From positions 620,001 to 684,000 of the forward strand of contig NZ_JANIBO010000001.1 of assembly GCF_024506395.1 (NCBI RefSeq): 64,000 nt of DNA, written 5' to 3'. Below the pieces are notes generated by a model, which was not told the origin of the DNA, made no database searches, and worked only from the letters and a program-made list of their open reading frames with translations. The translations under genes were made by a program, and so were the position numbers. Numbering within the stretch: position 1 is the first letter of the stretch; the number at the start of each line of letters is the position of its first letter. This DNA comes from Cetobacterium sp. NK01 (GTDB lineage: Bacteria > Fusobacteriota > Fusobacteriia > Fusobacteriales > Fusobacteriaceae). This document shows, piece after piece, positions 56,352 to 61,401 of this stretch.

Positions 56352-56374
56352 AAAAGAGAGCATAGCTCTCTTTT
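56352..56374 (-). terminator. Terminator of the P-type ATPase gene
   Basis: A 10-bp stem (56352-56361 with 56365-56374) that overlaps the stop codon region, with TTTTCTTTTTT following on the minus strand. Confidence 0.88.
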
Positions 56375-58505
56375 AATTGATAGATTTTTTAGTTAAAATT
56401 TTCGAAGCATTTAAAACAGCTAATACAGATACACCTACATCTGCAAAAATAGCTAGCCATAGATTAGCAATTCCTAAAACTCCTAATATCATAACAACAA
56501 TCTTAACACCTAAAGCAAATCCAACATTTTCTAAAACCACTTGGTTATTTCTTTTACCTAAATTTAAAGCTTCTATTATTTTATATGGATCATCATTCAT
56601 TAATACTATATCTGAACTTTCTATTGCAATATCGCTCCCTATCTTTCCCATAGATATTCCTATATCAGCCATTGCCAGAACTGGAGCATCGTTTATTCCA
56701 TCTCCTACAAATATAGTTCCTTTTTTACTTCTACTTTTTATTTCTTCTAATTTATTTACTTTATCTTGTGGGAGAAGATTAGTACAAATTTTATCCTCAT
56801 CAATTCCCAATATTTCTCCTATATGTTTTCCAGTTTTTTTATTATCTCCTGTTAACATATAGACATTAATTCCCTGTCCCTTCAATTCATCAACAGTCTT
56901 TCTAGACGTTTCCTTTATTTCATCTTCCACAAAAATTCTTCCTATAAGTATAGAATCTACTGCTACATAAACCACCGTTCCAAAAGCTTCTAATATATTA
57001 ATCTCAATTTTATGACCTTCTAAAAATTTTTTACTCCCTACTAAAATCTCTTTACCATTATATAATGCATTTATACCATAACCTGCTTTTTCATTATGTC
57101 CTTGAATATCCCATTCAAAAACTTTTATATCACCATAATTTAATATTGCCTTTCCTATTGGGTGATTAGAATAAAACTCTCCTGCTTTAGCATACTCTAA
57201 AACTTCATTTTCTGTCCCTTTTATAACCTCAACCTTTGTAACTTTAAAACTACCTTTTGTCAATGTTCCTGTTTTATCAAATACTACTGTGTCTATATTT
57301 TTTAATCTTTCTAAATAATTACCACCTTTTATCAATATACCATCCTTAGATCCTTTACCAATTGAACTAAAGAATGTTAATGGTACAGATAAAACTAAAG
57401 CACAAGGACAAGAGATTACCAAAAATATTAAAGCTCTACTGAACCATAATTTAAAATTTCCATCATATAACAACGGTGTTCCAAATCCTATAATAATAGC
57501 TAATAAAACAACTATTGGAGTATAGTATCTTGCAAACTTTGTTATAAACTTTTCTGCTTGAGCTTTTTTACTTCCCGCACTTTCTACCATTTCTATTATT
57601 CTATTAACTGTAGATTGAGAGTACATCTTAGTAACTTTAAATTCTATTGTTCCATCTATATTTATAGATCCACTTAAAATTTCAGTTCCAATCTCAGCCA
57701 TAATAGGAATCGATTCTCCTGTTAATGCTGATTTATCTAGTGTTGTTGTACCTGAAATTATTACACCATCTAACGGAACCCTTTCTCCAGGTTTCACAAC
57801 TAATATATCCCCTATATTTACTTCAGAGGGATCTACTATTTCTATAGAACCATTTTTATTTTTTAAATTAGCAAAATCTGGCTTTATACTCATTAGCTTT
57901 TCAATAGATTTTTTAGAATTATTTACTGCCATATCTTGGAAAAACTCTCCAATCTTATAAAAAATCATAACTCCAGCAGCTTCTCCAAAATCTCCTAATC
58001 CTAAGGCTCCAACTGTAGCAATACTCATTAAAAAGTTTTCATCTAAAAATTTGCCTCTTTTTATATTTTTTAAAGCATTCAATAAAATATCATAACCAGA
58101 TAAACCATAAGCTATAATTAAAATTATATCTTTTTGTAAACTTTTCGACAATGTTAATCCTACTACAAAAAGTGTTATTCCTACTGTTAAAATTATTAAA
58201 TCAATTTTTGATATTAATTCTTCACCATGAGTATGATTATCTTCATTTTTATTTAAATGATTGCTAACTGTAGAATCATCATCAACTTTTTTAAAATATG
58301 TTCCTGGTTCAACTTTATCTGCAATTTTATTTAGCTTTTCAATAAGATCTTTTTCCTCTATATCTTTTTCTAAAGTAAACTTTAATTTTTTAGAATAAAA
58401 ATCTACATTAACATCTTTTAAATTTTCCACTCTATCTAATTCATATTGAATTTTTGAAGCACATCCGCCACAATGTAGATTTACAATTTCATACTCTTTT
58501 TTCAT
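56373..58505 (-). CDS. Heavy-metal P1B-type ATPase, probably Zn/Cd/Pb exporter
   Basis: A 710-aa metal-exporting ATPase. It has an N-terminal HMA domain with CGGC (C12, C15) and a His-containing linker (about 85-97, NHTHGEE). A membrane CPC motif lies in VISCPCALVLSVPLTFFSS, the phosphorylation site is FDKTGTLTKG, and GDGINDAPVLAMADIG closes the P domain. The last TM pair reads LWLAIFADVGVSVLAVLNAS, a Zn/Cd-type signature with a membrane Asp, so Zn/Cd/Pb is preferred over copper. The ATG has GAGGAG upstream. A TATA-CCCCC-TATA site lies just after its promoter. Confidence 0.93.
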   Translation of the reverse strand: MKKEYEIVNLHCGGCASKIQYELDRVENLKDVNVDFYSKKLKFTLEKDIEEKDLIEKLNKIADKVEPGTYFKKVDDDSTVSNHLNKNEDNHTHGEELISKIDLIILTVGITLFVVGLTLSKSLQKDIILIIAYGLSGYDILLNALKNIKRGKFLDENFLMSIATVGALGLGDFGEAAGVMIFYKIGEFFQDMAVNNSKKSIEKLMSIKPDFANLKNKNGSIEIVDPSEVNIGDILVVKPGERVPLDGVIISGTTTLDKSALTGESIPIMAEIGTEILSGSINIDGTIEFKVTKMYSQSTVNRIIEMVESAGSKKAQAEKFITKFARYYTPIVVLLAIIIGFGTPLLYDGNFKLWFSRALIFLVISCPCALVLSVPLTFFSSIGKGSKDGILIKGGNYLERLKNIDTVVFDKTGTLTKGSFKVTKVEVIKGTENEVLEYAKAGEFYSNHPIGKAILNYGDIKVFEWDIQGHNEKAGYGINALYNGKEILVGSKKFLEGHKIEINILEAFGTVVYVAVDSILIGRIFVEDEIKETSRKTVDELKGQGINVYMLTGDNKKTGKHIGEILGIDEDKICTNLLPQDKVNKLEEIKSRSKKGTIFVGDGINDAPVLAMADIGISMGKIGSDIAIESSDIVLMNDDPYKIIEALNLGKRNNQVVLENVGFALGVKIVVMILGVLGIANLWLAIFADVGVSVLAVLNASKILTKKSIN

Positions 58506-58524: not shown

Positions 58525-58545
58525 GGTATACCTATACCCCCTATA
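58525..58545. promoter_or_regulatory. Candidate metalloregulator operator for the P-type ATPase
   Basis: The palindrome GGTATACC (58525-58532) is joined to TATACCCCCTATA (58533-58545). A C-tract flanked by inverted TATA repeats resembles operators of the CsoR/RcnR/FrmR repressor family. It lies about 5-25 bp downstream of the predicted transcription start. Confidence 0.5.
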
Positions 58546-58556
58546 TCTATAATCTT

Positions 58557-58585
58557 AAAATACCATAATTTACCATTTTTGTCAA
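58557..58585 (-). promoter_or_regulatory. Promoter of the P-type ATPase gene
   Basis: Minus-strand TTGACA (58585-58580), a 17-bp spacer and TATTTT (58562-58557). Confidence 0.72.
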
Positions 58586-58592
58586 AAATTTT

Positions 58593-58621
58593 TTGAATAT
58601 TTTTCTCTTACAGAGTATAAT
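58593..58621 (+). promoter_or_regulatory. Promoter of the methyltransferase gene
   Basis: TTGAAT (58593-58598), a 17-bp spacer and TATAAT (58616-58621). It is divergent from and only 7 bp away from the ATPase promoter. Confidence 0.78.
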
Positions 58622-58649: not shown

Positions 58650-59852
58650 ATGAAATACCTAAAAAATGATATTTTAAATATTTTTAAAGATAGTATTAAT
58701 GATAATAATTTTATAAAAGGAATTTTTTCAAATCCTACAAAAGAAAGTTCTTATAAAAAAATAAATTTAAAACCTGTTCAAATAAAAGAAGATTTTTTTA
58801 TACAGTTCGAAAGTTTTGTAAATAATAAGGCTTTTCATAAAAATGAACCTTTAGCTGATAGCTTTAACATTTTAGATGAAATTATTGATACATTTAAACA
58901 AATTTTAATAGTTACATCTAATCAAGAGATTCAAGTTTTACAAAATAAAAAAGGTTTTTCTATAAAAAGAAAAAATACTGAAAGTAAAACATTAGAACTT
59001 TCACACAATAAACAAAAAAATTATATTTTACAAGATAACACACCTATCCCATTTTTAATTAGACTTGGAGTTATGTCTGAAGCTGGAAAAGTTAGTAAAG
59101 AAAAATTTAATAAATTTAGACAAATAAATAGATATTTAGAATTTATTGAAGATACACTAAAAGAATTACAAGAAAAAAAACTTATTGGTAATTCAATGAA
59201 AATAATTGATTTTGGATGTGGTAAATCATACTTAACTTTTGCTTTGTATCATTATTTAAAAAATATTAAAAATTTAAATATTGATATTATCGGCTTAGAT
59301 TTAAAAGAGGATGTTATCAACCATTGTAATATCATTGCTAAAGATTTAAATTTTAATAATTTACAGTTCTTAAAAGGAGATATTAAAGATTTTGATATTT
59401 TTAAAGATGTTGACTTAATATTCTCACTACATGCTTGTAATAATGCTACTGACTACTCTATTCTTAAAGGATTAGAATTAGGTGCTAAAGCTATTTTAGC
59501 TGTACCTTGCTGTCAGTCAGAAATAAATCAAAAAATAGATAAATCCCCAACAACAGAATTAAAAGGAGTTCTATCGCCTTTTGGGAATCATGGTATTTTA
59601 CAAGAACGATTTAGTTCTTTAGCTACAGATGCACTAAGAGCTCTTTCTTTAGAACTTTGTGGTTATAATACAAAAGTTATGGAATTCATAGATATGGAAC
59701 ATACTCCTAAAAATATTCTAATCAAGGCTATTTTAGGTTCTCCTTCAGAAGAGAAACTAGAAGAAAAAAGAAAAGAATATGATAGATACTTACAATTTTT
59801 AGGTGTTAATCCGCTTTTAGATAGTTTACTTAAAAATTATTTTAAAAAATAA
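58650..59852 (+). CDS. SAM-dependent methyltransferase (Methyltransf_32-like)
   Basis: A 400-aa protein. The first roughly 165 residues form a Lys-rich N-terminal domain of unknown fold. A Rossmann methyltransferase domain (about 180-345) follows, with the SAM motif KIIDFGCGKSYLTFALYH, then IDIIGLDLKED, FSLHACNNATDYSI and AILAVPCCQSEIN. The CC pair and HACNNATD segment are seen in a family related to predicted rRNA or tRNA methyltransferases of the GSTCD C-terminal type. The substrate is unknown. It is followed 20 bp later by a small gene. Confidence 0.85.
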   Translation: MKYLKNDILNIFKDSINDNNFIKGIFSNPTKESSYKKINLKPVQIKEDFFIQFESFVNNKAFHKNEPLADSFNILDEIIDTFKQILIVTSNQEIQVLQNKKGFSIKRKNTESKTLELSHNKQKNYILQDNTPIPFLIRLGVMSEAGKVSKEKFNKFRQINRYLEFIEDTLKELQEKKLIGNSMKIIDFGCGKSYLTFALYHYLKNIKNLNIDIIGLDLKEDVINHCNIIAKDLNFNNLQFLKGDIKDFDIFKDVDLIFSLHACNNATDYSILKGLELGAKAILAVPCCQSEINQKIDKSPTTELKGVLSPFGNHGILQERFSSLATDALRALSLELCGYNTKVMEFIDMEHTPKNILIKAILGSPSEEKLEEKRKEYDRYLQFLGVNPLLDSLLKNYFKK

Positions 59853-60231: not shown

Positions 60232-61401
60232 TTAAGTTTCTAATAAATATAAAAAACCTCCAATTAATAAAGCTGGAATTACATTATATAAAGTAACTAG
60301 TAAAGCTGACTTTTTACTTAACGCTAACAATGGAAATAATGCATCTCCATCATTACAGATTGCATTAGCTACCAACGCTGAAAATGGAATTCCACCTGAT
60401 ATATAGATAGCAGCTAATAATATTTGAGGTCCACAACCTGGTATTAAACCAATAATGACTGCCCCAATTACTACTAAAAAACCCTTATTTTCTAAAAATA
60501 GTTTTAAGCCTTCAACTCCACCTATATATCTCAATAATATCTCATACCCTAAAAATGCCACAAAAACCCAACTTACTAAAAATGCAACCTCTTCTGCTGT
60601 GTGTATTAAAGTTTCTTTTATCGATCCTAATTTACTTTCAGTTTTATCAAAGTTACTACCTTGTATTCCTTTTCTGCTTAATAAAGTGTATAAAATACAT
60701 AAAACTGTTCCTATACTTCCACTTATATTCATATATTCAATTACAAAATGACTTTCATTCATATGAGCATCCAATAAATGTTCTAAAGCAAAAGGAAAAG
60801 AGATTATCACCAAAAACCAAAAAACTTCATACCATATATTATGAGTTATTAAATATACATATTTAATATCTGTTCTTCTGTGTAAAATTTTATCAACTAT
60901 ATCCCCTTTTTTATGCGCTATATGTTTATGATGTTTATGTCCACTTTCTTCATTTACATATTCCTTCCCTTTTTCCATTTGCTTATTTTTATTTATAACT
61001 ATGTTTTCACCAATCTTAAAATAATCTATAAATAAACCACAAATTACTCCAGTTATCCCACTTATTATTAATACTTTAAAGTATGCAGTTATATCTCCCA
61101 CAATTAAAATAAAGGCAGCATCTCCCATTGTTGTTATAAAAGCTGCAACTAAACTTCCAAAAGTTACTTTTCCTAAAATATACATTGGAACTACAACTAT
61201 TGCCCCTCCACAACCTGGAACTAGCCCTAATAACGCTGAAAAATAAACTTGATTTTTCCTATCTTTTTCTAATAGTTTTATTATTATTCCATTAAATTTG
61301 TAATCTATTAAACCAATTAATAATAAAGATATTGATACAAAAACACCAACTTTATAAAAAGTTTCTACAGTAACATTATAAAAAAGATAAATCCACTCCA
61401 T
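60232..61401 (-). CDS. Putative 10TM heavy-metal exporter (ArsP_2 / putative manganese transporter family)
   Basis: A 389-aa membrane protein with about ten hydrophobic helices in two repeated halves. Each half carries a Pro-Gly-Cys-Gly motif: GLVPGCGGAIVVVPMYILG and GLIPGCGPQILLAAIYISGG, each followed by an Asp-containing helix (TTMGDAAF and NDGDALF). A His-rich cytoplasmic loop (HKHHKHIAHKKGD, about 152-166) suggests metal binding. The family has been annotated as arsenic or manganese efflux without firm proof. The ATG has GAGGTGA upstream. Single gene between hairpins. Confidence 0.85.
   Translation of the reverse strand: MEWIYLFYNVTVETFYKVGVFVSISLLLIGLIDYKFNGIIIKLLEKDRKNQVYFSALLGLVPGCGGAIVVVPMYILGKVTFGSLVAAFITTMGDAAFILIVGDITAYFKVLIISGITGVICGLFIDYFKIGENIVINKNKQMEKGKEYVNEESGHKHHKHIAHKKGDIVDKILHRRTDIKYVYLITHNIWYEVFWFLVIISFPFALEHLLDAHMNESHFVIEYMNISGSIGTVLCILYTLLSRKGIQGSNFDKTESKLGSIKETLIHTAEEVAFLVSWVFVAFLGYEILLRYIGGVEGLKLFLENKGFLVVIGAVIIGLIPGCGPQILLAAIYISGGIPFSALVANAICNDGDALFPLLALSKKSALLVTLYNVIPALLIGGFLYLLET

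Follow-up and report, generated by a model that had tools for sequence, protein, structure and literature searches.

The promoter of a predicted zinc/cadmium exporter gene in Cetobacterium sp. NK01 carries a two-tract site that is very probably the operator of the cell's only CsoR-family repressor. This repressor would keep the gene of the P1B-2 ATPase silent until it is loaded with metal, and such control was probably acquired through a single regulator swap. The site lies in a stretch of 64,000 nucleotides that was analysed as a whole and is called the window here. Conservation across species decides the matter and confirms the predicted operator as a real site.

The features are listed in Table 1. 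The operator reads TATACCTATACCCCCTATA on the forward strand of the window and TATAGGGGGTATAGGTATA on the pump strand (58545-58527). The first-pass annotation had described an operator-like site after the promoter of the metal ATPase, at about +5 to +25. This description was upheld, as orthologous pumps of several genera have the site in their upstream regions. The promoter hexamers place it at about +5 to +24 of a start site predicted from them. The operator unit is the two-tract 19-mer, which is more than TATA-C5-TATA alone. A neighbouring palindrome, GGTATACC, had been counted as part of the pattern; it proved peculiar to the window's genome and was found in one of 11 same-genus upstream regions, the window's own. 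In the pump promoter, TG precedes the second hexamer and 10 of 12 letters agree with the consensus. A likely ribosome-binding site lies on the pump strand between the operator and the pump start.

In the sections of PMC3902906 drawn on here, type 2 CsoR operators consist of two short tracts separated by 2-4 bases, with outer AT-rich inverted repeats typically 11 bp apart and a 5'-TAC/GTA-3' dyad spanning 9 bp. In the window, GGGGG-TATA-GG gives two short G/C tracts with a gap in this range, both on one strand, and TATA-N11-TATA occupies 58527-58545. The copA site and other pump sites share this spacing. The sites studied here carry GTA and TAC between the tracts, not outside them; an inverse orientation of the dyad is mentioned for M. 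tuberculosis in the same sections of PMC3902906. The predicted architecture of the window site fits the type 2 CsoR operators published there.

Table 1. Positions of the operator, promoters and genes (in the window unless a locus is named)
Feature	Position	Strand	Remarks
P1B-2 heavy-metal ATPase gene, ZntA/CadA type	56373..58505	(-)	710 aa; one HMA domain; CPC in TM6, K668, D689
Predicted CsoR-type operator, TATA-GGGGG-TATA-GG-TATA	58527..58545	(-)	two G tracts; 11 bases separate the outer TATA elements; profile match 11.8 bits; kept at same-genus and other-genus pump promoters
Pump promoter	58557..58585	(-)	TTGACA 58585-58580, 17-bp spacer, TATTTT 58562-58557
Divergent promoter-like site of the methyltransferase gene, TTGAAT-N17-TATAAT	58593..58621	(+)	operator on the pump side only
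Methyltransferase gene	58650-59852	opposite to pump	Methyltransf_32 domain
Tandem CsoR-domain gene of g4	L316:510-1088	(-)	two PF02583 stretches confirmed
Tandem CsoR-domain gene of g4	L317:3513-4088	(+)	
Tandem CsoR-domain gene of g4	L321:3328-3885	(+)	
Tandem CsoR-domain gene of g4	L325:3470-4048	(+)	

The pump scored 498 bits against the Zn/Cd model TIGR01512 (cut-off 313.5) and 395 bits against the copper model TIGR01511, just under the cut-off of 397. The nearest solved structure was ZntA (4umv) with 357 bits, followed by a Cd pump (291 bits) and copper pumps (at most 275 bits). C366-P-C368 in TM6, K668 in TM7 and D689 in TM8 align with ZntA 4umv, and we take these positions to have the roles assigned to them in ZntA. 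The strict NCBIfam cut-off for ZntA was not reached (436 of 1240 bits). TIGR01512, the ZntA structure and the residue alignment together bear out the initial reading of the pump as Zn/Cd-type, not copper-type. It is predicted to be a P1B-2 ATPase of the Zn/Cd/Pb type, nearer to the Zn/Cd than to the Cu families. Its gene neighbours are holA and the methyltransferase gene. A further gene near the pump, at 60232-61401 on the reverse strand, matches PF11449 (ArsP_2), a putative 10TM heavy-metal exporter; NCBIfam names it an arsenic efflux protein.

A search of the window's genome for CsoR/RcnR-family genes found a single one (PF02583; 101 bits, cut-off 22.8). It starts 14 bp after copA (626 bits against TIGR01511-Cu, cut-off 397), and the locus is about 0.8 Mb from the pump site. 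The protein has copper-type Cys-His-Cys ligands (AYC...NHLRKC). Its best NCBIfam model was the copper repressor RicR with 70 of 175 bits, short of the cut-off, and the cut-offs for RcnR (52 of 138 bits) and FrmR (52 of 133 bits) were missed as well. The site had been described as typical of CsoR/RcnR/FrmR-type repressors. The CsoR part of this claim is supported; RcnR and FrmR were rejected and need not be invoked, since the sole PF02583 gene encodes a C-H-C protein. An ArsR-family regulator was also rejected, as none of the seven PF01022 matches in the genome is near the pump by coordinates; the loci of four of them were inspected. The SmtB-type pattern ATATGAACANNNNTTCATAT had no match in this genome with up to one mismatch. 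Because the pump is of the Zn/Cd type and the only PF02583 protein has copper-type ligands, the suspicion of the first-pass annotation that the regulator-metal pairing is unusual holds at the level of sequence. The copA operator, TATAGGGGTGTACCCTATA, has no second match in the genome (up to two mismatches; one match for the reversed control). It scores 27.5 bits versus 11.8 for the pump site, and it belongs to the training set of the profile.

By its letters alone, the window site stands barely above chance. The 13-mer TATACCCCCTATA has one exact match in the 3.1-Mb genome. With up to one mismatch it has eight matches versus 12 for the reversed pattern, and with up to two mismatches as many matches as in the window arose in 46 of 100 shuffles of the window. 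One of the eight genome matches is the site, one (57804) falls within the pump gene, and the remaining six are located in or before further genes, none of which was recognised by eye as a metal gene. The 19-mer occurs once exactly and its two next best matches have three mismatches; up to three mismatches gave three matches versus five for the reversed pattern. The profile score of the site was reached in one of 100 shuffles of its own upstream region, and therefore the support from the window site alone is modest. Thus, the case for an operator rests on comparison across species.

The family set consisted of 61 genomes from 14 genera, and each of 54 genomes had a single pump match at E 1e-100 or better. 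The site is present in all 11 genomes of the window's genus that have the pump, with an A for one G in G008, and the tracts of these same-genus pump sites are uneven (5+2). In an alignment of eight of these 11 regions, TTGACA, TATTTT, TATAGGGGGTA and then GGTAT are invariant, and the stretch up to the ribosome-binding site varies; the mean column identity is 76%. The 19-base frame recurs in other genera with differently arranged tracts (TATAGGGTATAGGGGTATA, TATAGGGTATACCCCTATA and TATAGGGGTATACCCTATA). The site is present across genera whose pumps are 49-61% identical to the window's pump. The absence of a CsoR-family gene, or of the site before orthologous pumps, had been named in advance as speaking against an operator; the gene is present and the site is conserved in several genera.

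The pattern TATAGGGGTGTACCCTATA, scanned over the family with up to two mismatches, was found 35 times, in 31 of the 61 genomes, versus 7 times for the reversed pattern. Within 900 bp upstream of a gene, 19 matches stand before copA, five before csoR (one heads a csoR-pump operon) and seven before the pump. By eye, the match in G044 precedes copZ-copA at a contig end and that in G051 precedes an HMA start taken as the pump's; the two remaining matches lie elsewhere on contigs bearing copA and csoR. The pattern ATAGGGTATRGGGGTATA, with up to one mismatch, gave 30 matches in 25 genomes versus one reversed. Fourteen are before pumps, nine before copA, one in G051, three before a small gene (SHOCT domain in one tested case), one before a CopZ-like gene (G041), one at the matching place in G042 (no frame of this kind was found there) and one elsewhere. 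Thus, the copA motif of some genera is found before the pump in other genera. The small gene was found in three g8 genomes (L297, L298 and L299), where a perfect CsoR-type site at about 1501-1518 is followed by a gene from 1546 that encodes a protein of 78-81 residues. This gene is a possible further member of the CsoR regulon.

An independent profile was trained on 20 copA/csoR sites alone and scored on 52 pump upstream regions; L082 and L097, at contig ends, were left out. At least 10 bits were reached in 32 of the 52 regions, G008 (4.4 bits) and G036 (2.4 bits) were weak, and the other 18 scored at most 0.3 bits, including G046, whose site precedes csoR. The 34 sites found with the profile begin 31-73 bp before the pump start codon. 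With G046 and G051 included, 36 genomes have the site and 17 do not, and G060 is outside this count; G051 was counted from an HMA start with the site on another contig, which we infer to be the start of its pump. A PF02583 gene is present in 36 of the 36 genomes with a pump-linked site. In G026 (L041), a break in the pump reading frame separates the HMA part from the core, and the CsoR-type site upstream is still present.

The arrangement of csoR, copA and the pump differs among genomes. In G046, csoR lies directly before the pump, apparently in one operon behind TATAGGGGTATACAGTATA. Its genus mate G047, from the same pump group, has neither a PF02583 match nor the site. In three genomes of the window's genus (G005, G006 and G009; G006 is only 67% complete), the csoR locus is found between the same neighbours without copA. 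In these genomes csoR stays behind its own palindrome TATAGGGTATACCCCTATA (one base off in G005), and the pump site is kept. G005 and G009 have a second PF02583 gene beside another copA. In G009 (L115:1029-3779 on the reverse strand, and L169), this second copA has its own divergent PF02583 gene directly upstream, and the coordinates indicate the same arrangement in G003 and G005. At the promoter before the second copA in L169, a different inverted repeat, made up of C and G tracts, was seen.

In genus g12, csoR is not beside copA and is preceded by a gene which we take to be galU from its appearance. At the threshold used, no copA match was obtained in one genome of g12 (G050, 92% complete). 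The genus retains the pump site (G049 and G050 by the profile, G051 by inference), and the profile found no such site before the csoR genes of g12 themselves. Among 46 fetched csoR loci, the CsoR ligands are C-H-C in 42, C-H-H in three (all of g12) and C-F-C in one. The C-F-C protein is encoded by a 207-residue frame (L107, G034) in which a rhodanese-looking domain (by eye) is fused to PF02583 and Phe replaces the ligand His. Such a fusion resembles sulfur-sensing CstR-like proteins. Many CsoRs of the family have N-terminal tails bearing Cys/His, including some from genomes whose pump is without a CsoR-type site. In the g4 genomes viewed (four), the gene after copA encodes two CsoR domains in tandem (185-192 aa), and the last ligand Cys is missing from the second domain in L321.

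Before 12 of the 17 site-less pumps of the family, palindromes such as ATATGAACAATTATTCATAT were seen; we take them to be SmtB-like, by eye. An ArsR-family gene lies before four others, the pumps of G002 and of the three g3 genomes; this was checked with a profile for two of them. G047 has neither. The pattern ATATGAACANNNNTTCATAT, with up to one mismatch, was not enriched over the family genomes (36 matches versus 32 reversed), and its places include five pump promoters (G039, G040, G041, G043 and G052). The sister family was sampled with 20 pump loci from 19 of the 27 outside-family genomes with a pump match. No CsoR-type site was found in the 160 bp before the start at these 20 loci (best 1.7 bits; best within 1.4 kb, 7.9 bits). 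An SmtB-like palindrome was found by pattern at ten of them, an ArsR-like gene upstream was seen by eye at six (one profile-confirmed), and four had neither by pattern. Named comparison loci numbered 80 among the matches listed, none assigned to this phylum by its title, and a start could be found in 75. Among the matches listed, these 75 loci had no CsoR-type site beyond two likely ribosome-binding sites; the two flags (L173 and L185) adjoin the start and were rejected. An apparent ArsR gene was seen by eye before the pump in 11 of the first 13 named loci among the matches listed. Pumps of the sister family and of clostridia mostly have SmtB-like palindromes or ArsR-like genes.

Operator labels were placed on the pump trees by eye, before the profile was built. 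In the unrooted tree of the family, one change separates the two operator types (SH-aLRT 100). In the rooted tree, with 13 outgroup rows, the 16 sampled CsoR-type pumps form one group (100/100), and G002 and G047 are also inside it. This group lies within the family group (98/98), and the g3 pumps fall to the outgroup side. Earlier branching of SmtB-type pumps is seen for a single row (G043, 85/95); for the other SmtB-type rows, the branching order relative to the CsoR-type group is not resolved by the tree. An 81-residue fragment (L204) was excluded; in a tree with 22 outgroup rows it had fallen inside the CsoR-type group. The single operator change and the single group make it well supported that the predicted CsoR-type control was gained once, most likely at the base of one clade of the family. 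The swap was likely from SmtB/ArsR-type to CsoR-type control. In G002, an ArsR-family gene (L027:3587-3952, reverse strand) lies directly before the pump, the CsoR-type site is absent and the pump is inside the CsoR-type group. This is an apparent swap back to ArsR-type control.

In the mechanism predicted by analogy with CsoRs studied elsewhere, metal-free CsoR would bind the two-tract site, which directly follows the promoter, and block transcription of the pump gene. Metal-loaded CsoR would let go, and the pump would be made together with CopA. CsoR control would have replaced the SmtB/ArsR-type control seen in relatives. Binding, repression, the effector and the direction of the swap are predictions from sequence. 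Like the B. liaoningense csoR-cueA divergon and the S. lividans type 2 operators, as described in the sections used of PMC5057107 and PMC3902906, the predicted system has a C-H-C repressor of PF02583, linkage to a copper pump, two G/C tracts with flanking TA-rich repeats 11 bases apart, and a site at the promoter. Unlike those regulons, whose targets in these sections are P1B-1 copper pumps or copZA operons, it has a P1B-2 pump of the Zn/Cd type as an additional predicted target, and both tracts lie on one strand. ZntA/CadA pumps under SmtB/CadC (ArsR-family) control belong to the same pump family, and ArsR-like genes or SmtB-like palindromes occur in the phylum and in clostridial relatives. 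In contrast, no ArsR gene or SmtB-like palindrome was seen at the window's pump, and the predicted regulator belongs to a different family. PF02583 and G-tract operators are features that RcnR, FrmR, InrS and CstR have in common with the window's CsoR. The difference is that the window's genome has a single PF02583 gene, that its protein has the Cys-His-Cys set, and that this protein misses the RcnR and FrmR cut-offs. CsoR of Thermus thermophilus (TTHA1719) controls copZ-csoR-copA, according to the part of PMC10318464 drawn on. It has a broad metal response and its H-C-H-H ligands resemble the C-H-H set of g12, whereas the window's own CsoR is C-H-C.

Since its ligands are C-H-C, Cu(I) is a likely effector of CsoR. 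It is plausible that CsoR also responds to Zn/Cd, so that one sensor would serve both pumps. In the sections of PMC5057107 used here, Cu, Zn and Cd all induce the C-H-C system of B. liaoningense csoR-cueA, and the H-C-H-H CsoR of Thermus coordinates many metals, which makes a single sensor credible. We give nearly even chances to a reading in which this clade's CsoR senses soft metals (Cu, Zn, Cd) broadly or after retuning, and properly serves both the copper pump and the Zn/Cd pump. In addition to the Zn/Cd responses of these two CsoR systems, the three g12 CsoRs, all C-H-H and encoded apart from copA in genomes that keep the pump site, argue for it, as do the Cys/His-bearing tails of many family CsoRs. 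However, the window's CsoR keeps C-H-C, and such tails also occur where the pump is without a CsoR-type site. It is a real possibility, if short of even, that CsoR binds and represses but senses only Cu(I). Copper would then induce the Zn/Cd pump because it displaces zinc from thiol sites, or the pump would export another soft metal met with copper. This is consistent with the C-H-C set of the only PF02583 protein, with the linkage to copA, and with the response of CsoR from M. tuberculosis and L. monocytogenes to Cu alone, cited in the same sections of PMC5057107. The keeping of csoR where copA is absent from the locus fits less well, yet G005 and G009 have another copA; induction of the B. 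liaoningense system by Zn and Cd also speaks against Cu(I) as the only signal.

Other explanations concern the site itself. It is improbable that it belongs to another regulator with a liking for G tracts, or that it is a promoter element acting through DNA shape or leader RNA. The site does lie in the predicted leader and is near chance by letters, but the same 19-mer frame, with the tracts in either orientation, is shared by pumps and copA/csoR operons, the site co-occurs with csoR, and G046 has a csoR-pump operon. We consider it very improbable that the site is a non-functional chance match in AT-rich DNA kept by shared descent. The whole promoter region is conserved within the genus, with the mean column identity given above for eight sequences, but the distance between genera in pump identity, the position 31-73 bp from the start and the absence of the site before 17 other family pumps and 20 sister-family pump loci count against such a match. 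What counts against CsoR repression of the pump through this operator is the uneven tracts of the same-genus pump sites, the score of 11.8 bits versus 27.5 for the copA site, the substitution in G008, the siteless csoR genes of g12, the incompleteness of G006, the second PF02583 gene in G005 and G009, and the missed RicR and ZntA cut-offs. The metal logic is also odd, with a copper-type sensor for a Zn/Cd-type pump. A scenario that we put forward tentatively and with some doubt is that the Zn/Cd pump left SmtB/ArsR control for CsoR at the base of the clade, giving one repressor for two metal classes. CsoR would have been kept for the pump after copA left the csoR locus, and the change of the third ligand Cys to His in g12 may be a natural retuning toward the substrate of the remaining target. 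The C-H-H set of g12 would fit such retuning.

As a rule, a metal sensor matches its pump. In the clade described here, a copper-type repressor appears to be wired to a Zn/Cd-type exporter, and relatives are wired differently. This suggests that one bacterial group has put a Zn/Cd exporter under the control of a copper sensor. Among the top-ranked papers from searches of the open-access literature, outside which most subscription papers lie, we recognised no report of CsoR in fusobacteria or of a CsoR-controlled P1B-2 pump; the regulon predicted here for one clade, with a Zn/Cd-type pump as a member, appears to be new. Differently wired relatives, relatives whose csoR locus lacks copA and a genus with other sensor ligands form a comparative series for asking whether rewiring precedes or follows a change in the sensed metal. 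If the predicted control is true, copper exposure may change the handling of zinc and cadmium in these bacteria.
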